64,000 bases of DNA. Origin: an uncultured Gemmiger sp. (GTDB taxonomy: Bacteria > Bacillota > Clostridia > Oscillospirales > Ruminococcaceae). The notes under the pieces were generated by a model. It did not search any database and was not told the DNA's origin. It saw only the letters and a program-made list of their open reading frames with translations. The first letter of the stretch is position 1. The number at the start of each line of letters is the position of its first letter. A program made the translations under genes and the position numbers. Shown here one piece after another: positions 56,878 to 64,000 of the stretch. Location of the stretch: contig CALXHT010000002.1 in the NCBI GenBank assembly GCA_944388215.1, forward strand, positions 1-64,000, read 5' to 3'.

Positions 56878-57669
56878 TTACCGGGATTGCGGGGAAATAC
56901 GCCGCAGGCTCAGCGCCGCCGTCAGCACAAGGCCCGCCAGGATGCAGGCTGCGCTGATCCACTGGGCGCCGGACAGCGGCCCGGCCAGGCCCCGGGCGGC
57001 GTCGCCCCGGAAGCATTCGGTGCAAAACCGCAGCGCGCCGTAGCCCATGAGATAGAGGGCCAGCCGCCGGCCGGGGGTACGGTAGACGGGGAGCATCAGC
57101 AGCCCGAAGATAACCAGGTCCCCGGCGGATTCCATCAGCTGCACCGGCACCAGCGGGATGCCCGCGGGGGCAAAACCGCCCTCCGGGTAGCAGACACCCA
57201 GCCAGCTGTCGGTGGGGCGGCCGTAGCAGCAGCCCGCGCAGAAGCAGCCCACCCGGCCGATGGCATGCACCAGCGGCACGGCGGGCAGAAAGACGGTTTC
57301 CAGCTGGGCAAACCGGGCGCGCCGGGTGATGAGCACCCACACAAGGCAGACCAGCCCGCCGATGAGCCCGCCGTAAAAGACCAGCCCGCCGTAGAGGTAG
57401 TGCTGCAGAAAGAGCTGGGGATTCTCCCAGAAATGGGGCAGATCCTGTACCAACCAGGGCCACACCAGTGCCAGAGAATACAATTTGGCGCCGATCAGGG
57501 CACCGGCGCCAAACAGGATGTAGATGCGGGAGACACGCTCCGGTTCCAGGGCGGGTTCTGCCAGCCGGGCGCGGCTGCGGCAGAGCAGCCAGCCCAGTAC
57601 GGCGCCCACCGCCATCAGAAGGCCGTAGACGGGATAGTCGCGGAAACCGATGTGAATGTAGGGGAGCAT
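56878..57669 (-). CDS. lgt: Prolipoprotein diacylglyceryl transferase
   Basis: Lgt attaches diacylglycerol to the lipobox cysteine of lipoprotein precursors such as ModA and the sugar-binding protein here. The 263-residue membrane protein begins MLPYIHIGFRDYPVYGLLMA and has seven helices. The signature region is HAIGRVGCFCAGCCYGRP (135-152): the conserved Arg139 is kept, but the usual GNFxNxE is replaced by a Cys-rich form seen in divergent Clostridial members. No strong ribosome site precedes the ATG; it may be coupled to the small gene upstream. Confidence 0.85.
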   Translation of the reverse strand: MLPYIHIGFRDYPVYGLLMAVGAVLGWLLCRSRARLAEPALEPERVSRIYILFGAGALIGAKLYSLALVWPWLVQDLPHFWENPQLFLQHYLYGGLVFYGGLIGGLVCLVWVLITRRARFAQLETVFLPAVPLVHAIGRVGCFCAGCCYGRPTDSWLGVCYPEGGFAPAGIPLVPVQLMESAGDLVIFGLLMLPVYRTPGRRLALYLMGYGALRFCTECFRGDAARGLAGPLSGAQWISAACILAGLVLTAALSLRRISPQSR

Positions 57670-57682
57670 ACCGGGCGGTACA

Positions 57683-57970
57683 TCAGGCCGTCATGGCGCT
57701 CAGACCGCCGGCAGCACCCAGGCAGCCGACGCAGGCCACGCAGCTGACAAAGAAGATGGCGCTCAGGATCACGCCGATCAGGGAGACCACAAAGCCGCCG
57801 GTGCGCAGGCCTTCATTGAAGCCGGCTTTCTTGGAATTGCTGGCCAGTACCAGGCCCACGATGCCCAGAATCAGGCCGACAATGGAAGAAATGGAGAAGA
57901 AGGACAAAATAATGGAAATGATGCCGCAGACCAGGCTGCCGATGGCCGCATTTTTACCGGGAACATTCAT
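57683..57970 (-). CDS. DUF4190-like small membrane protein (95 aa)
   Basis: This small protein has two hydrophobic segments (about 8-42 and 58-90), Gly-rich, with the motif AAIGSLVCGIISIILSFFSI and LRTGGFVVSLIGVILSAIFF, as in DUF4190. It has no charged functional site. AGGAGG precedes the ATG. A promoter and a 12-bp hairpin lie upstream. Function unknown; it precedes lgt by 13 bases. Confidence 0.75.
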   Translation of the reverse strand: MNVPGKNAAIGSLVCGIISIILSFFSISSIVGLILGIVGLVLASNSKKAGFNEGLRTGGFVVSLIGVILSAIFFVSCVACVGCLGAAGGLSAMTA

Positions 57971-57994
57971 ACAAAAAACCTCCTCAAATCATAA

Positions 57995-58055
57995 AGACCT
58001 GTTACCGAAACAATGGTAACAGGTCTATTTTACCATTCCTGCGGCAAACCGTCAA
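57995..58055 (-). promoter_or_regulatory. Promoter and 5' hairpin of the DUF4190-like gene
   Basis: On the minus strand TTGACG (58055-58050), 17 bases, TAAAAT (58032-58027). Directly after it AGACCTGTTACC (57995-58006) and GGTAACAGGTCT (58015-58026) form a perfect 12-bp stem at the start of the transcript: an operator, stabilising stem or attenuator. Confidence 0.6.
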
Positions 58056-58100
58056 TGAAACAGGGCGCTTTTTGCAGAAAATGTGTGAAAATTGAGGAAT

Positions 58101-59237
58101 TTATGGCCGGCCGGCGGTGCAGCGGGAAGTCTGGTCCCGTTTGCGCTGCACATCGGCCCGCACCAGCCGGTAGAGGGTGGCGGTGACGGGCACCGCCAGC
58201 AGCATGCCCGCGATGCCGCCGATGCCGCCGCCCAAGGTTACGGCGGTGAGCACCCAGATGCCGGGCAGCCCGATGGAGGTGCCCACCACCCGGGGGTAGA
58301 TCAGGTTGCCCTCCAGCTGCTGGAGGATGGCGATGAAGATAAGAAAGCCCACCGCCTGCAGCGGGTTGACGGTGAGGATCATGAAGGCACCGATGCCCGC
58401 GCCCAGATAGGCGCCCACCACGGGCAGCAGGGCGGTGGCGCCCACCAGGGTGCCGATCATGGGGGCGTAGGGCAGCCGGAAGAGCAGCATGCCCAGCGTG
58501 CAGAGCACCCCGATGATGATGGCCTCGGTGAACTGCCCTACGAAGAATTTGGTGAAGGTGTCATGGGCGGTGGCCAGCACATACCACAGCCGGTCACAGA
58601 AGGGGGCGGGCAGGTAGGTATCGGCCAGGGCGCGGAACTGGCGGCCCAGGCGCTCCTTGCCGGCCAGCAGGTAGAGGGCGAAGATCACCGCGATGACCAC
58701 CTGCATGAGGATGCCGCCCAGACTGCTGAGCAGCGCGAAGGCGGAGGAGAAGACGTTGCCCACGCCGGAGGTCAGGTAGGTGGTGGCCTTTTGCAGCAGC
58801 TCGGGCCAGTTGAGGTTGAGGGAGCGCAGCCAGCTTTCCAGCTGGGGCATGTCGATGTCCAGGGAGTCCAGCCAGTTGAGGAAGGCGTTGACGGCGGGGG
58901 GCACGTTGACCAGCATGACCCGGAAGGCGTCCACCAGCTGGGGAATGATGAGAACCACCAGCAGGGCGGCCACCACGGCGATGATGACCAGCGCCCCGGT
59001 GATGCTGATGGCCCGGCGGGCGGGGTAGAGGCGGGAACGGGCATCACGCAGCGGGGACAGGGTTTCCAGGCGGGAGACCAGGATGTTCAGCACATAGGCC
59101 ACGCCGCAGCCCAGCAGCAGGGGCATGAGCAGCGAGAAGAACAGCCGGATGCCGCCGAAGAGGGCGTCGCTGTATTTGAGGGCCAGCAGTACCAGGGCAA
59201 CGGCCGCCAGGTAGAGCCAGGGCTTTTTGTTCTGCAT
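58101..59237 (-). CDS. AI-2E family transporter (PerM/TqsA-like)
   Basis: The 378-residue protein has about seven or eight helices, with the family segment VVGAYLGAGIGAFMILTVNP and the C-terminal block EGNLIYPRVVGTSIGLPGIW, which are typical. Members export small molecules or act as Na+/H+ antiporters, and AI-2 is proven for few. The start at 59237 follows AAAGG. A promoter lies at 59276-59304. Confidence 0.88.
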   Translation of the reverse strand: MQNKKPWLYLAAVALVLLALKYSDALFGGIRLFFSLLMPLLLGCGVAYVLNILVSRLETLSPLRDARSRLYPARRAISITGALVIIAVVAALLVVLIIPQLVDAFRVMLVNVPPAVNAFLNWLDSLDIDMPQLESWLRSLNLNWPELLQKATTYLTSGVGNVFSSAFALLSSLGGILMQVVIAVIFALYLLAGKERLGRQFRALADTYLPAPFCDRLWYVLATAHDTFTKFFVGQFTEAIIIGVLCTLGMLLFRLPYAPMIGTLVGATALLPVVGAYLGAGIGAFMILTVNPLQAVGFLIFIAILQQLEGNLIYPRVVGTSIGLPGIWVLTAVTLGGGIGGIAGMLLAVPVTATLYRLVRADVQRKRDQTSRCTAGRP

Positions 59238-59275
59238 GGGAAAGTCCTTTCTGCGCAAGGCAAGGTGATGGTATT

Positions 59276-59304
59276 ACTATACCCTATGCCGCCCCGGCGC
59301 GCAA
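59276..59304 (-). promoter_or_regulatory. Promoter of the AI-2E-family gene
   Basis: On the minus strand TTGCGC (59304-59299), 17 bases, TATAGT (59281-59276). Confidence 0.55.
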
Positions 59305-59325
59305 GGGACAAAGGGGGCAAAGTGT

Positions 59326-59360
59326 ACAAAAGCGGCCCCGCCGGGCAGGCGGAGCCGCTT
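59326..59360 (-). terminator. Terminator of the 431-aa gene
   Basis: AAGCGGC (59330-59336) pairs with GCCGCTT (59354-59360), with CGCC/GGCG inside; on the minus strand TTTTG follows. Confidence 0.7.
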
Positions 59361-59371
59361 GAAACAAAGGA

Positions 59372-60667
59372 TCAGCCGGGCAGGAAAGGACTGTCGGCGG
59401 GGCCCAGCAGCAGGACATCGGCGTCGGAGGAAGTCAGGGACACCGGGCAGAGCAGCAGCCCCGGCAGGTTCACAGGGCTGCCGTCGCTGTTGGTGGCGGG
59501 AATGTCGGTGGGGGTCAGCGTCCAGCGGGGCAGGCCGTCCTTGTCGCAGAGGGCCAGCCCCATGCCGTCAAACTGTTCCCACTGGGGGCAGTCCAGGGTG
59601 CCCCACGGGGTCTTCAGCCGGTAGCCGGGCAGGGCGGCATCCCAGTCCAGCGTGTAGGAATCGTCGGAATCCAGGAAGGTGGTCCAGGACCCCTTGGGCG
59701 GGTCCATCGCCAGCCGCTGGGCGGCGCCGGGGGCAGGTTCCAGCATCTGCACCCGCAGACTGCCGTCGGTGGCGCGGTAGGTCACCACACAGCAGCCGCT
59801 GCCCGACCACTGGGCGTGGAACTCCCCGGTGGACGGAAAGGCGAAATTCCCCACGCTGTCACTGGAAAAGGCTTGGGTGAGCCCCAGATAGTTCACCTGC
59901 ACCGAGCTGGAACCGTCGGGGTTGGTGAGGGTGTAGCTCCGGAACCCCCAATAGGAAGGCAGAAGCACCACCTGGGTGCAGAGCACCACGGCGAGGGACA
60001 GCAGCCCCACCACCAGATGGCGGCGACGGCGGGGCGGCCGGGCACTGCGGAAAAACCGGGCGTCCTGTACCTGCTCCTGCAGCCGTCCGTAGAGCCGGGG
60101 ACCTTCCCCGAAGCAGGCGTCGTCGGGGATGGGCACGATCCGCGGGTGCTTCCAGCTGCCCCAGATCAGCACAGTCCAGCCCACAAACCGCTGCACCATG
60201 ATGATATCCTCCACCGCCAGGTCCTCCTCCCCGCGGGTGGTGACCAGATGGAGCCGGTCAGGGTAGAGGGTGCCGTCCTGCAGACGGCCCAGGGCGCGCC
60301 GCAGCAAAAGGCGCAGCGGGAAGTCCTTCAGCGCCAACAGGAAGAGGAAAGCAAAAACAAGGGGCCAGAAAAACTGCAAAGGGGAGGCCTGCTCCTGGTC
60401 CAGCAGCATCCGGCAGGCGTTCACAAAGCAGGCCAGCAGACCGAACAGCGCCGCCGCGCCGATGATCCGCCGCACCAGCGTGCGCCGGGGCATGGCCCGG
60501 CCGGCCATCCAGGTCGCCAGCAGGGCCTGGGGGTCCCGGGACAAGGCACCGGGGGCCAGGTCGGCCCAGCAGTCCCACGGCGGCGCGGGCTGGTTTGGCT
60601 GTGCGGCGGGTGTGACCGCCGCCGGTTCTGCCGGTTCGGCCGCCGGGGTGGGATGCAATTCTTCCAT
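59372..60667 (-). CDS. Three-helix membrane protein, sister of the XRE/Asp-box protein (431 aa)
   Basis: Residues 1-60 are Pro/Ala-rich. Helices lie at about 67-88 and 97-113, a cytoplasmic domain at 115-215 (LYPDRLHLVTTRGEEDLAVE, then VGWTVLIWG), a third helix at about 217-237, and an outside domain at 240-431. The cytoplasmic and outside parts match the 773-aa neighbour: CCVVTYRATDG (its CCAITYQTTDG), MGLALCDKDGLPRWT (its LGVALCDEDGLPHWT) and LLCPVS in both. The HTH and Asp-boxes of the neighbour are missing. Start at 60667 after AAAGGAGGG. No known family recognised. Confidence 0.75.
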   Translation of the reverse strand: MEELHPTPAAEPAEPAAVTPAAQPNQPAPPWDCWADLAPGALSRDPQALLATWMAGRAMPRRTLVRRIIGAAALFGLLACFVNACRMLLDQEQASPLQFFWPLVFAFLFLLALKDFPLRLLLRRALGRLQDGTLYPDRLHLVTTRGEEDLAVEDIIMVQRFVGWTVLIWGSWKHPRIVPIPDDACFGEGPRLYGRLQEQVQDARFFRSARPPRRRRHLVVGLLSLAVVLCTQVVLLPSYWGFRSYTLTNPDGSSSVQVNYLGLTQAFSSDSVGNFAFPSTGEFHAQWSGSGCCVVTYRATDGSLRVQMLEPAPGAAQRLAMDPPKGSWTTFLDSDDSYTLDWDAALPGYRLKTPWGTLDCPQWEQFDGMGLALCDKDGLPRWTLTPTDIPATNSDGSPVNLPGLLLCPVSLTSSDADVLLLGPADSPFLPG

Positions 60668-60688
60668 GGCAAACCCTCCTTTCCCCTT

Positions 60689-60717
60689 ATTGTACACCCG
60701 GAAAATCTCCGGCACAA
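60689..60717 (-). promoter_or_regulatory. Promoter of the 431-aa gene
   Basis: On the minus strand TTGTGC (60717-60712), 17 bases, TACAAT (60694-60689). Confidence 0.6.
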
Positions 60718-60724
60718 GGGCGGG

Positions 60725-63046
60725 TCAGGCAATGTCGCGCACTTCCTCCAGCGTCCAGGGGCCCGTCAGGCTGTCCGCGGTGAAGGCGGCCTCCTGGTGG
60801 CCGCCGGGGGCCTGGGTCAGCGTCAGCCGCCAGCCGTCGTCTGCCTTCTCCAGGCGGTCCACCTTGTTCAGCCAGTAGAACTCCCGGTCCGCCAGCAGGG
60901 TCATCCGCTCTTCGTCGGTCAGGCTGTCGTTGTCCCAGGGCATCTTTGCCCGCTGCCAGCTGGCGCCGCCGTCCCGGCTCACAAAAACGTCGATCCAGCC
61001 CGATTCAAACTGGGAACACCGGGTGGCTACGGCGGTCTGCTCGTCGTAGAATACCACCCCGCTGAGCAGTTCGGACTGGCTTTCCCCGGGCAGGGCGCAA
61101 TGCTCCCAGCTGATGCCGCCGTCCCGGGTGACGCCGATGGCCATCCCCATGCCGGTGCCCATCGACCAGTCGGTGCAGACGCCGTACCAGCCGAAAGTAT
61201 CGTCCAGGAAGCCCAGACTGCGCTGGGAGACATCGTGCACCCCCTCGAACTCCTCCAGCGGCACCTCCTGCCAGCTGGCACCCCGGTCGCGGGTCAGGTG
61301 GAGGGTGACCTGCTGCACCTCGTTGTTGCGGGTGGTGGTCAGGAAGGCGCCCAGGTTGTCGGTCATGACGCAGGGCTGGATGTCGTCGGTGGTGCGCACC
61401 TCCTCGCTGCCTTCCATCGCCTTGCTGAAGGTGGCGCCGCCGTCCCAGGTGAAATAGACGCCGTCGGTGCGCACCGTATAGTCCTTCTCGCCCGAGAAGT
61501 CGGGCGGTGTCTCGGCCAGCGCCTGCTGCTGGGCCTGCCGGGCGGCCTCCTCCTCGGGGCTGGGCAGGCCCAGAGCTTCCCGCAGGTCCCGCACCTGATC
61601 CTCCTCGCTGTAGTAGTGCAGCGTCACCGCCTCGGTGGCCGCCATGGACACCGGGCAGAGGATCAGCGACCCGTCGGGGTCCGGCCCGTTCTCGGCGTCG
61701 TAGTCCCGGCCCAGCACCACCGTCCAGTGGGGCAGGCCGTCCTCGTCACAGAGGGCCACCCCCAGCGTGCCGAACTGCACGGTCTCGCTGTAGATCTGGC
61801 CGTAATCCGGCGACGAGGCGTCCCACAGGATCTGGATGTTCCCCGAACCGGGCTCGCTGCGCAGCGTCGCGCCGGGGTTTACGGCGTCCTCGTACTGCCG
61901 CCAGGTTCCCTGGAGCAGCGGCGCCACATTGTAGTAGCTTACTCCCGACCCCCGGTCGCCGTAGGTGGCCAGAAACACATGGGTGGTGCCGTCGGTGGTC
62001 TGGTAGGTGATGGCGCAGCAATCCCCCGTCATCCACTGCTTTTTCATCCGGCCCACCGCCGGGTAGGGGAAGGTATCGCCGCTGTGCAGGTCGGTGACCA
62101 TGCCGGTCTCGGGGTCCCGGCGGAGCATCAGCAGCGTGCCGGTGGGGGAGATCGTCCCCGCAAAGCCCAGCGTGGGGGCCAGCGCCAGCGGAAAGACCAC
62201 CGCTGCCGTCACGGCCAGGGCGATCAGGGCGGGGACCTGCCGCAGCCGGGGCGTGCGGGGGTCGCCGTCGGTGCAGGCCTCCGGCACCCGCAGCCGCAGA
62301 TGGTCCTGCAGGGCGTGGGCGGACTGGGTGCAGCTGTCGTCGGGCACCGTCACAGCCAGCGGGACAAGGCTTCGCTCCCACACCAGCACGGTGCAGCCCC
62401 GGTAGCGCCGCACCAGCGCCAGGTCACCGTAGGGCAGCAGGACGCCGTCCTCCCGGCGCAGCTCCTCCGCATACAGGGTACAGGCGGGCATGCGGCACAG
62501 CTCCCTGCCCAGCCGGGACCGAAGCCAGGGGGTCAGGGCCGCAAAGCCCAGCAGCACCAGCCCCGCCGCCAGGGCGGCCAGTGCCAGCGGGTCGGTGGGG
62601 CTGCCGCCGAAAAAGTCCTGCACGCTCAATCCTATGCCCGCGGCAAGACCCGCCACCCCCAGCAGGGGCAGGCCCAGCCGCCGCCGGCGCACCTCGGGCA
62701 GCTGACGGCAGGCCAGCACCGCGGCGTTGCGCTCGGCGCGGGTGGGACGACGGTGGGGTACCCGGGCCAGCGCCGGTTCCTCCGGCCGGGAGGCGGCGGG
62801 CGGGACCGGTTCGGACGCCTCCCCGGCGGCGGGCCCGGGCGCTTCCCCGGCCAGCAGGGCGTCCACCGTGACCCCCAGGGCGGCGGCCAGGTCGGGCAGC
62901 AGCACAATGTCCGGCAGGCCCTGGCCGGTCTCCCATTTGCTCACCGCGCGGTTGGTGATCCCCAGCTTTTCGGCCAGCTGCTGCTGGGTCAGGCCGCGGG
63001 CCCGCCGCGCCGCCGCAATGAAAGCACCGATCTTTTTGGCATCCAT
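60725..63046 (-). CDS. Membrane-bound XRE regulator with external Asp-box domain (773 aa)
   Basis: Order: XRE helix-turn-helix (5-60, LTQQQLAEKLGITNRAVSKW), Pro/Ala linker, helices at about 125-143 and 153-172, a cytoplasmic domain at 175-265 (LYAEELRREDGVLLPYGDLA, like the neighbour), a third helix at 272-292, an outside domain at 300-480 related to the 431-aa protein, a charged linker (480-515) and a C-terminal part with four Asp-boxes: TWDGGATF (533-540), TRDRGASW (585-592), TRDGGISW (640-647) and SRDGGASW (690-697). Asp-boxes belong to sialidase-like and Ycf48-like beta-propellers; no sialidase Arg triad is evident. The layout suggests a one-component sensor that binds DNA while in the membrane. 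AAAGGAGG precedes the ATG. Confidence 0.82.
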   Translation of the reverse strand: MDAKKIGAFIAAARRARGLTQQQLAEKLGITNRAVSKWETGQGLPDIVLLPDLAAALGVTVDALLAGEAPGPAAGEASEPVPPAASRPEEPALARVPHRRPTRAERNAAVLACRQLPEVRRRRLGLPLLGVAGLAAGIGLSVQDFFGGSPTDPLALAALAAGLVLLGFAALTPWLRSRLGRELCRMPACTLYAEELRREDGVLLPYGDLALVRRYRGCTVLVWERSLVPLAVTVPDDSCTQSAHALQDHLRLRVPEACTDGDPRTPRLRQVPALIALAVTAAVVFPLALAPTLGFAGTISPTGTLLMLRRDPETGMVTDLHSGDTFPYPAVGRMKKQWMTGDCCAITYQTTDGTTHVFLATYGDRGSGVSYYNVAPLLQGTWRQYEDAVNPGATLRSEPGSGNIQILWDASSPDYGQIYSETVQFGTLGVALCDEDGLPHWTVVLGRDYDAENGPDPDGSLILCPVSMAATEAVTLHYYSEEDQVRDLREALGLPSPEEEAARQAQQQALAETPPDFSGEKDYTVRTDGVYFTWDGGATFSKAMEGSEEVRTTDDIQPCVMTDNLGAFLTTTRNNEVQQVTLHLTRDRGASWQEVPLEEFEGVHDVSQRSLGFLDDTFGWYGVCTDWSMGTGMGMAIGVTRDGGISWEHCALPGESQSELLSGVVFYDEQTAVATRCSQFESGWIDVFVSRDGGASWQRAKMPWDNDSLTDEERMTLLADREFYWLNKVDRLEKADDGWRLTLTQAPGGHQEAAFTADSLTGPWTLEEVRDIA

Positions 63047-63275
63047 CGTCCGTTCCTCCTTTGCTGGTTTTCAGTCTACACCCCGCCGGTTGGATTTGCA
63101 AGGAACGCCGTGTGGAAGCGCTCCACGCAGCGTGGACCCGCCGGGAAAAGGGCGGAAAAACGCGGAAAAGAGGCCCCTGCCCGGCGCGGCGGCCACCAGT
63201 CTTCGCCAAACTGCCCAAAGAACGCGGGGAAAATTGAGCACCCTGCTGAAAAAACGGCGGGAACGCCCCGGGTGG
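63047..63275. other. Intergenic region between the XRE/Asp-box gene and the licT-like gene
   Basis: A minus-strand promoter for the 773-aa gene lies here: TTGCAA (63101-63096), 17 bases, TAGACT (63078-63073). GTGGA-AGCGC-TCCAC (about 63112-63126) is a small palindrome. I see no gene in the rest. Confidence 0.5.
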
Positions 63276-63305
63276 TTGACTTTCGGGGGGCGGGTATGGT
63301 ATTGT
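63276..63305 (+). promoter_or_regulatory. Promoter of the licT-like gene
   Basis: TTGACT (63276-63281), 18 bases, TATTGT (63300-63305) with an extended -10 (TGGTATTGT). Confidence 0.55.
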
Positions 63306-63341
63306 CTACACAGATAAAGCAAGCGGCCGAGGGGCCTTGTT

Positions 63342-63432
63342 GGATTGTTACCGGTAAAGCGGGCTAGACCAACTCCGTTAGGATCTTTTTCTGGTGTCAG
63401 GAATGGGATTTTAGGGGGCTGGTTATTTTTTT
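63342..63432 (+). promoter_or_regulatory. RAT antiterminator and leader terminator
   Basis: The stretch from GGATTGTTACCGGTAAAGC to GGGCTAGACC (63342-63370) fits the ribonucleic antiterminator bound by BglG/LicT proteins. Its 3' part (ACCAACTCC, 63368-63376) can instead pair with GGGGCTGGT (around 63415-63423), which runs into TTATTTTTTTT, forming a terminator. The regulator downstream can therefore control its own message. Confidence 0.75.
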
Positions 63433-63465
63433 TGTCCGTCCCGGGCGGAGAAAGGGGGCGACGGA

Positions 63466-64000
63466 ATGCGCATCAAGAAGGTCATCAACAACAACATCCT
63501 CTGTGTGATCGACGAAAAAGGCAACGAGATGATCGTCACCGGCAAGGGGCTGGGGTTTGGCCGCAAGGTGGCGCAGTTCGTGGACCCCGCGGCGGTGGAA
63601 AAGGTCTACCGCATGGAGGACCGCACCGGGCAGCGGCGGCTGCGGGAGCTGGTGGAGCAGATCCCCATCGAGCATCTCGAACTGACCGAGGCGATGATCG
63701 CCGAGATCCGGGCGACCATCCATCAGCCCCTCAACGAAAGCCTGCTCATCACGCTGGCGGACCACATCAGCTTTGCCATCCAGCGCAAGGAACAGGGCAT
63801 CGAGTTCCAGAACCCGCTGGCGGGCAGCGTTCTCTGTTACTATCCCACCGAGTACCAGCTGGGCCAGCGGTGTCTGGCCATGGTGAAGGAGCGGTGCGGG
63901 GTGGAGCTGAACGGCGACGAGGCGTCCTTCATTGCGCTGCACATCGTCAACGCCGAGCTCAACACCGACATGAGCGAGATGTACGACATCACCCGCCTCA
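63466..64000 (+). CDS. licT: BglG/LicT-family transcriptional antiterminator (partial)
   Basis: The gene runs off the right edge after 178 codons. Residues 1-55 form the RNA-binding domain (MRIKKVINNNILCVIDEKGN, then GKGLGFGRK). A PRD1 domain follows with its regulatory histidines His100 in LADHISFAIQR and His159 in FIALHIVNAEL, which are phosphorylated by the PTS in this family. PRD2 would lie outside the window. GAAAGGGGGCG precedes the ATG. A beta-glucoside or similar PTS operon downstream is likely but unseen. Confidence 0.9.
   Translation, partial: MRIKKVINNNILCVIDEKGNEMIVTGKGLGFGRKVAQFVDPAAVEKVYRMEDRTGQRRLRELVEQIPIEHLELTEAMIAEIRATIHQPLNESLLITLADHISFAIQRKEQGIEFQNPLAGSVLCYYPTEYQLGQRCLAMVKERCGVELNGDEASFIALHIVNAELNTDMSEMYDITRL

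Follow-up and report, generated by a model that had tools for sequence, protein, structure and literature searches.

A predicted transmembrane XRE-type regulator with outward sensor and Asp-box domains, and its neighbour without a helix-turn-helix, in an uncultured Gemmiger sp.

Results and discussion

We analysed a 64,000-nucleotide (nt) stretch of DNA from an uncultured Gemmiger sp. (assembly GCA_944388215.1, contig CALXHT010000002.1, positions 1 to 64,000; hereafter the window), whose right end carries two related genes, P1 and P2, on the reverse strand and 57 nt apart. We hold with moderate confidence that P1 is an XRE-type transmembrane one-component regulator that would respond to ligand binding outside the cell by activating its own P1-P2 unit, with P2 modulating its action. 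The outward-facing sensor and Asp-box domains of P1 would bind an extracellular or cell-wall ligand, and the signal may be relayed through the third transmembrane (TM) helix, a cytoplasmic YcxB-like domain and a helical hairpin to the XRE domain. As a dimer, this domain is predicted to recognise a palindrome that precedes the predicted transcription start of P1 by about 63 bp, and a weak second site near -43 may assist. P1 would then most likely activate its own unit, which appears to be closed by a terminator. P2, likely expressed from the same unit, could pair with P1 through the middle and outside domains common to both and so tune it. The sequence itself shows the domain order, the homologies, the lineage history, the conserved operator and the terminator-like stem; topology, dimer binding, activation, ligand binding and contact between P1 and P2 are inferences. 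Coordinates of all features are given in Table 1.

Domain architecture and membrane topology

P1 begins with an XRE/Cro-type helix-turn-helix (HTH) domain whose recognition helix, TNRAVSKWE, includes Asn32. AlphaFold modelled residues 1-60 with a predicted local distance difference test (pLDDT) score of 79-88, and Foldseek matched this part to XRE structures. Hydropathy predicts a hairpin of two TM helices and a third helix further on; an additional hydrophobic segment at residues 47-65 falls within the HTH. The hairpin loop is short and free of Lys and Arg, and its flanks are basic. Lys plus Arg make up 15% of the N-terminal part of P1, 15% of the segment between helices 2 and 3, and 6.6% of the part after helix 3. 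In P2, the values are 6.3% for the less basic N-terminal part, 18.3% for the middle and 4.6% for the C-terminal part. Three crossings would place the HTH and the middle domain inside and the remainder outside, and we infer a topology for P1 in which the sensor and Asp-box region, within the roughly 480 residues after the last TM segment, faces away from the cytoplasm.

An earlier reading of this DNA, made without database searches (the sequence-only reading), had proposed a tethered XRE regulator with its HTH inside and its Asp-boxes outside, an arrangement with which the three helices, the charge pattern and the anchored Asp-box modules found elsewhere (below) all agree. The 773-residue layout that it described, with an XRE domain, three helices, a middle domain and four Asp-boxes, was confirmed by Pfam, hydropathy and a motif scan, and the helix count predicts that the two ends of P1 lie on opposite sides of the membrane rather than on the same side.

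The middle domain of P1 and P2 is, by profile comparison, YcxB/PF14317-like. Pfam YcxB matched three of the 12 family members (best E 9.7e-4), and P1's own copy of the domain had no Pfam YcxB match. Compared profile against profile with four YcxB-type proteins of related genomes (L102, L104 and L108, which exceed the Pfam cut-off, and L110, just under it), the middle domain gave single-comparison E-values of 3.7e-9 together with the hairpin and 3.6e-7 on its own. Control comparisons gave 0.54 for the reversed profile, 0.23 to 0.73 for eight shuffles, 0.003 for the helices alone and 0.022 for the P1-type middle domain against the sensor alignment. YcxB-like proteins similarly have a TM hairpin and, after it, a small domain rich in beta structure, which we take to have a PH-like fold, but those compared here are 162-213 aa long and lack an HTH or a large outside domain.

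Predicted operator and direction of control

Upstream of P1 lies a palindrome, at 63122-63136, that we predict to be its XRE operator and that points to autoregulation. The sequence-only reading had suggested 60689-60717 and 63073-63101 as stretches for XRE binding; these are instead the -35/-10 core-promoter-like sites of P2 and P1, respectively, and the operator likely lies further upstream. We scanned the 15-bp pattern TCYACG-N3-CGTRGA across the 200 nt before the start of ten XRE-bearing family members and four HTH-less genes. The palindrome had no mismatches in the window, in G220 (the second genome of the window species, the window genome being G000), in G262 and before one of two neighbouring genes in G031 (G031a), and one mismatch in G269 and G013. 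These six of the ten XRE members all carry it 89-97 nt before the gene start. Three mismatches were found in G069 (at -102) and G010 (at -122), with P 0.04 and P 0.12, respectively, against resampled sequence, and five in the other G031 gene (G031b) and G115. Before the HTH-less genes, which represent three species, the pattern had four or five mismatches, with none of the four within one.

The palindrome is also consistently spaced from the promoter, lying 20-21 bp from the best -35 box in five of the six sensor-carrying XRE genes (the window, G269, G262, G031a and G069); in G013, a different -35 box was chosen. A second, degenerate copy follows 20-21 bp on, with 3-4 of ten positions mismatched in the window, G269, G262 and G031a and 5-6 in G069 and G013, although this count was uncontrolled. 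Genome-wide, the exact palindrome occurs once each in G000, G220 and G262, at the P1-type gene in each case, and twice in G031, once at the gene. It is absent from G269 and G249 and occurs once in G267, on a contig other than that of the family gene. Within the window, one site matched with up to one mismatch compared with 0.44 expected.

The recognition helix provides a second line of evidence. Across 37 distinct HTH-bearing frames from XRE loci of the bacterial family (L003-L036 and L079-L122), the residue after the recognition-helix Thr or Ser was Asn in 12 frames, nine of which had a TCNACG-type site within one mismatch, none a TCNACC-type site and three neither. It was Asp in 17 frames, with seven TCNACC-type sites, one TCNACG-type site and nine frames with neither. 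The remaining eight frames had other residues, including the G069 member with Ser, which has a TCNACG-type site within one mismatch of this pattern, looser than the one scanned above. With a same-species duplicate removed, the counts were 8:0 for Asn versus 1:7 for Asp (Fisher p 0.0014), a value that is post hoc because the TCNACC pattern was defined after seeing examples, in loci that are related and not independent. This tracking of the half-site by Asn or Asp supports the palindrome as a candidate XRE binding site.

P1 and P2 probably form a closed two-gene unit, because just past the P2 stop there is a stem-loop with a T-rich tail, which a simple terminator scan did not pick up; G220 has nearly identical sequence at this place. 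The position of the main site, about 63 bp before the predicted start, makes P1 a probable activator of this unit. P1 could instead be a negative autoregulator that acts at the upstream palindrome, and at the weak site next to the -35 box, to hold its promoter down until an outside signal releases it. XRE proteins are often repressors, the degenerate second copy adjoins the -35 box, and some related XRE loci have a site directly against a -35-like box (gap 0). We nevertheless consider repression unlikely, as the best-conserved site sits clear of the core promoter in an activator-like position, keeps the 20-21 bp spacing from the -35 box in five of six sensor-carrying members, and is accompanied by a second site that is weakly matched.

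Several observations weigh against autoactivation of a P1-P2 unit by a membrane-spanning P1. The operator position suggests activation but falls short of proof, and no site within one mismatch precedes G031b, G115, G010 or G069. Exact palindromes occur at chance level, with a reversed control pattern giving 0-3 per genome; because the control is equally frequent, only the placement of the palindrome is informative. At 13 other XRE loci, the gap to the best -35 box ranged from 0 to 44 bp and was 19-21 bp in three, so the 20-21 bp spacing appears specific to sensor-carrying members. P1-type and P2-type genes occur together in two of 35 genomes of the genus, both from one species. The AlphaFold models, each built on an alignment of three sequences, were poor outside the HTH (mean pLDDT 45.4 for P1 and 49.5 for P2) and therefore speak to the HTH only, not to topology or propeller shape; Foldseek found no match at E 0.001 for the low-confidence P2 model.

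Origin and role of P2

P2 resembles P1 from the first helix through the end of the sensor domain, with 29% identity over 286 aligned columns (E 1e-20) and shared CCxxTYxxTDG, ALCDxDGLPxWT and LCPVS blocks. No Pfam family matched P2 at E 1, and the motif scan found no Asp-box in it. Alignment, Pfam and motif scan together bear out the description of a 431-residue neighbour that has the middle and first outside domains of P1 and lacks the HTH and Asp-boxes.

In a tree of the shared region, P2 grouped with G249 (support 100/100), to which it is 65-66% identical, and next with G267 and G255 (100/99). P1, G269 and G262 fell outside this group, and the tree did not resolve how they group themselves. 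G249 and G267 each have a single Asp-box-bearing gene at the same locus, between a LicT-type gene and an AI-2E transporter. Because these HTH-less relatives keep the Asp-box, P2, judged by its place in the HTH-less lineage, most likely lost it. Most simply, P2 would be the original gene at this locus, now without its Asp-box, and the P1-type gene would either have come in next to it or have persisted there in the window species. The paired paralogue of the sequence-only reading is thus better described as an apparently shortened lineage member than as half of a conserved pair, given that the two types co-occur only in the window species. We note that the absence of a partner gene elsewhere is uncertain, because the genomes with only one type are 68-93% complete.

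This history could mean that P2 is a decaying relic, an HTH-less lineage member that lost its Asp-box in the window species and now has little function. Retention of the Asp-box in G249 and G267 at the same LicT/AI-2E transporter locus and the tree support for P2 with G249 are consistent with decay, but the P2 frame is intact and 96% identical to its counterpart in G220, and it has a promoter-like site, a ribosome-site-like stretch and a terminator-like stem. We therefore regard a relic as rather improbable. We doubt that P1 has P2 as an obligate co-component, in the manner of VtrA with VtrC or ToxR with ToxS, the two outside domains forming one receptor. The genes share a strand, a short gap and one terminator-like stem after both, P2 lacks a DNA-binding domain while its membrane and outside domains are common to both proteins, and a co-component layout of this kind is described in PMC9214523. 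However, G269 and G262 have P1-type genes but no P2, G249 and G267 have P2-type genes but no P1 (subject to the completeness noted above), and P2 has its own promoter-like site, near which no palindrome was found.

Outside domains of P1

The C-terminal part of P1 contains four matches to the Asp-box pattern [ST]-x-D-x-G-x-x-[WF], compared with a mean of 0.04 and a maximum of two when residues 291-773 were shuffled 5000 times. With a looser pattern, a further match appears at residue 412, inside the sensor domain. Pfam matches in this region were to the BNR, sortilin and Ycf48 families, and profile matches in the PDB were to xyloglucan hydrolases (best E 2e-10), sialidases, Ycf48 and sortilin. 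P1 shares with these propellers the Asp-box repeats and their Trp/Asp/Gly pattern, but differs in that the module is joined to a DNA-binding membrane protein. At about 258 residues, the domain also appears short compared with larger propellers.

Asp-boxes are structural elements, and the idea that the outside part is a sialidase- or xyloglucanase-like enzyme rather than a receptor, which the profile matches to such hydrolases would favour, is highly improbable given that no F/Y-R-I-P motif of sialidases (GH33) was found in P1 outside the membrane, the sole FRIP-like match being LRVP at residue 252, on the predicted inner side. The view of the sequence-only reading that sialidase activity is unsupported therefore stands.

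The sensor domain, of about 180-190 residues, had no significant match in Pfam (best 0.2) or among PDB sequences (best E 2.6). Two candidate relationships were set aside: hhalign of the sensor alignment with one DUF5412 sequence gave 0.2% probability, and the sensor and Asp-box alignments, compared in case the sensor consisted of further Asp-box blades, had no profile match to each other (0.1%). We searched genome samples for the sensor, counting the window genome within each sample. In the sample of the bacterial family, a 14-row profile found it in 10 of 247 genomes, or nine genomes in eight genera without the doubtful G223, whose match (E 4.9e-4) lies in a frame unlike the genes of the P1/P2 family. 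The order sample gave 2 of 295 genomes, both within the bacterial family, and the class sample 2 of 391, one of them outside it (G909, a 293-aa protein with three hydrophobic segments). On these profile matches, the sensor domain is an unnamed family that spans eight sampled genera of the bacterial family.

Modular distribution across genomes

Some part of P1 outside the HTH was matched in 12 of the 35 genus genomes. Proteins with the full XRE-sensor-Asp-box arrangement occur in G000, G220 (same species, 97%), G269 (55%) and G262 (41%); the G269 gene lies on the same contig as L043, an uncultured Gemmiger relative from the protein search. HTH-less sensor-Asp-box proteins occur in G249, G267 and, in diverged form, G263, and a frame in G255 has the sensor and no Asp-box, although it lies near a contig end and its start may be cut. 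Asp-box domains without the sensor were found in G151, G251 and G266, which have a lipobox-like start, and in G261, where the frame as read begins at a lipobox-like motif. Stand-alone Asp-box proteins from other species of the genus (L051, L073, L074 and L075) carry a lipobox-like motif near the start, and their N-terminal region has no blastp similarity to the sensor domain.

Beyond the genus, the parts appear in other combinations. G031 has two neighbouring genes, each with the XRE and membrane core, one bearing the sensor and the other the Asp-box domain. In G069, the gene that comes after an XRE-sensor gene, in the same orientation, has a start resembling a signal sequence and carries an Asp-box domain, and an Asp-box protein in G116 has one N-terminal hydrophobic segment. 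G013 has the sensor with XRE, and G060 and G169 have the sensor in surroundings without an XRE hit. G115 and G010 combine XRE and sensor with a different C-terminal region, which appears to be another swapped outside module. This region (L047:6374-7198 and L048:6250-7065) is about 270 aa long and had no Pfam match at E 0.1. In the 10-12 kb fetched around the G013, G060, G169, G115 and G010 genes, blastp at 1e-3 detected no gene with an Asp-box.

By these matches, the parts are modular, joined in one protein in three species and divided between adjacent genes in two further genera. The fusion is no isolated case: it occurs in the window species and in two others at about 55% and 41% identity. 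The sequence-only reading had also raised the possibility of genomes with the HTH and Asp-box parts in separate genes; these do exist, in G069 and in another form in G031, but the fusion is still recurrent. More generally, 24 of 27 XRE rows of the bacterial family had at least one hydrophobic segment in a simple scan, so membrane-anchored XRE regulators look common there, although the rows were chosen by HTH similarity to P1 and the scan can also fire inside the HTH. We tentatively suggest, at somewhat less than even confidence, a new family of modular membrane regulators in gut bacteria with a constant core (XRE, hairpin, YcxB-like domain and helix), sensor and Asp-box parts that are fused or split, HTH-less homologues as built-in partners or decoys, and a readable code between recognition helix and autoregulatory palindrome (Asn with TCNACG, Asp with TCNACC).

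Relation to known systems

Transmembrane transcription regulators (TTRs) are defined as single proteins that carry both a predicted DNA-binding domain and one or more TM regions (PMC10269533). Judged by its HTH_3 match (E 5.5e-15) and three hydrophobic segments outside the HTH, P1 fits this published definition and is a new modular layout within the TTR class, not a new class. The earlier statement that P1 matches no named system was too strong, given this fit and the frequency of hydrophobic segments among the XRE rows. As in P1, TTRs are assumed to respond to outside signals, and about 57% have no recognised domain beyond the DNA-binding one (PMC10269533). P1 differs from the TTRs of that paper in its two-domain outside input with an Asp-box module and in the YcxB-like domain between its helices; the main text there nowhere mentions propeller, XRE or HTH_3.

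BcrR of Enterococcus and Clostridium perfringens is a membrane-anchored XRE protein that stimulates transcription (PMC13384398, PMC3435297, PMC3968067). It is 207 aa long in C. perfringens, with four TM helices described as sensing bacitracin (PMC3435297, PMC3968067, PMC13384398), and its partner column in the PMC10269533 table reads Na. P1 resembles BcrR in its N-terminal XRE domain and membrane anchor, and BcrR stimulates its target promoter, but P1 has three TM helices and a large outside region, compared with four helices and no outside domain described for BcrR. In VtrA/VtrC and ToxR/ToxS (PMC9214523), too, the gene next to that of the membrane regulator encodes a membrane protein with no DNA-binding domain. 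P2 is such an adjacent, same-strand, HTH-less membrane protein, but its pairing with P1 does not hold across genomes. The VtrC-type partner is described in that source as lipocalin-like, whereas P2 is a homologue of P1's own membrane and outside parts. In our partial coverage of the literature, which is not proof of absence, we found nothing that combines an XRE or other helix-turn-helix domain, TM segments and an Asp-box/BNR outside region.

Together, the sensor, Asp-box module, relay domain, predicted operator and closed unit would make outside-to-DNA signalling testable in Gram-positive gut bacteria. The HTH-less homologues and split versions may serve as natural experiments on the sensing versus relaying parts.

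Features and surroundings of the locus

Table 1. Features of the P1-P2 locus, with positions in the window
Feature	Positions	Strand	Details
P1 gene	60725..63046	-	773 aa, ATG start, open reading frame; XRE HTH, two TM helices, YcxB-like domain, TM helix 3, sensor, Asp-box domain
XRE/Cro-type HTH of P1	62858..63019	-	residues 10-63; Pfam HTH_3, E 5.5e-15
P1 TM helices 1 and 2 (predicted)	62531..62677	-	residues 124-142 and 154-172; hairpin; hydropathy
P1 middle domain, YcxB-like, predicted cytoplasmic	62261..62485	-	residues about 188-262; profile-profile comparison
P1 TM helix 3 (predicted)	62180..62236	-	residues 271-289; hydropathy
P1 sensor domain, predicted outside	61613..62155	-	residues about 298-478
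P1 Asp-box domain, predicted outside	60728..61501	-	residues about 516-773; Pfam BNR, BNR_2, Sortilin-Vps10
Asp-box 1	61427..61450	-	TWDGGATF, residues 533-540
Asp-box 2	61271..61294	-	TRDRGASW, residues 585-592
Asp-box 3	61106..61129	-	TRDGGISW, residues 640-647
Asp-box 4	60956..60979	-	SRDGGASW, residues 690-697
P2 gene	59372..60667	-	431 aa, ATG at 60667, stop ending at 59372; two TM helices, YcxB-like domain, TM helix, sensor; no HTH or Asp-box
P2 sensor-domain copy	59408..59938	-	residues about 244-420
Predicted XRE operator	63122..63136	-	palindrome TCCACGCTGCGTGGA, starts 90 nt before P1 start codon
Possible second operator	63102..63116	-	degenerate; 20 bp downstream of first, adjoins -35 box, 3 of 10 fixed positions mismatched
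P1 core promoter (predicted)	63073..63101	-	TTGCAA-17-TAGACT; -35/-10 search
P2 promoter-like site	60689..60717	-	TTGTGC-17-TACAAT; in 57-nt gap after P1, by eye
Probable terminator of P1-P2	59330..59360	-	13-bp stem-loop, -27.3 kcal/mol, T-rich tail, just past P2 stop

Rfam had no matches in 58900-64000. Beyond the stem-loop, 56878-59258 (-) encodes an AI-2E-type transporter, a DUF4190-like protein and Lgt. Inclusion of the transporter and Lgt on the P1-P2 transcript was considered and set aside, as the terminator-like stem lies between, although read-through is possible. G267 has homologues of the transporter and of Lgt in this order, and the G249 gene has the transporter as its neighbour. 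On the other side, the start of a LicT/BglG-type antiterminator gene (CAT_RBD and PRD domains) lies at 63466-64000 (+), divergent from P1. A 1183-aa open frame runs antisense to P1 and P2 at 59816-63367 (+); long stretches of it are also open in relatives, and it looks like a G+C-rich shadow frame.

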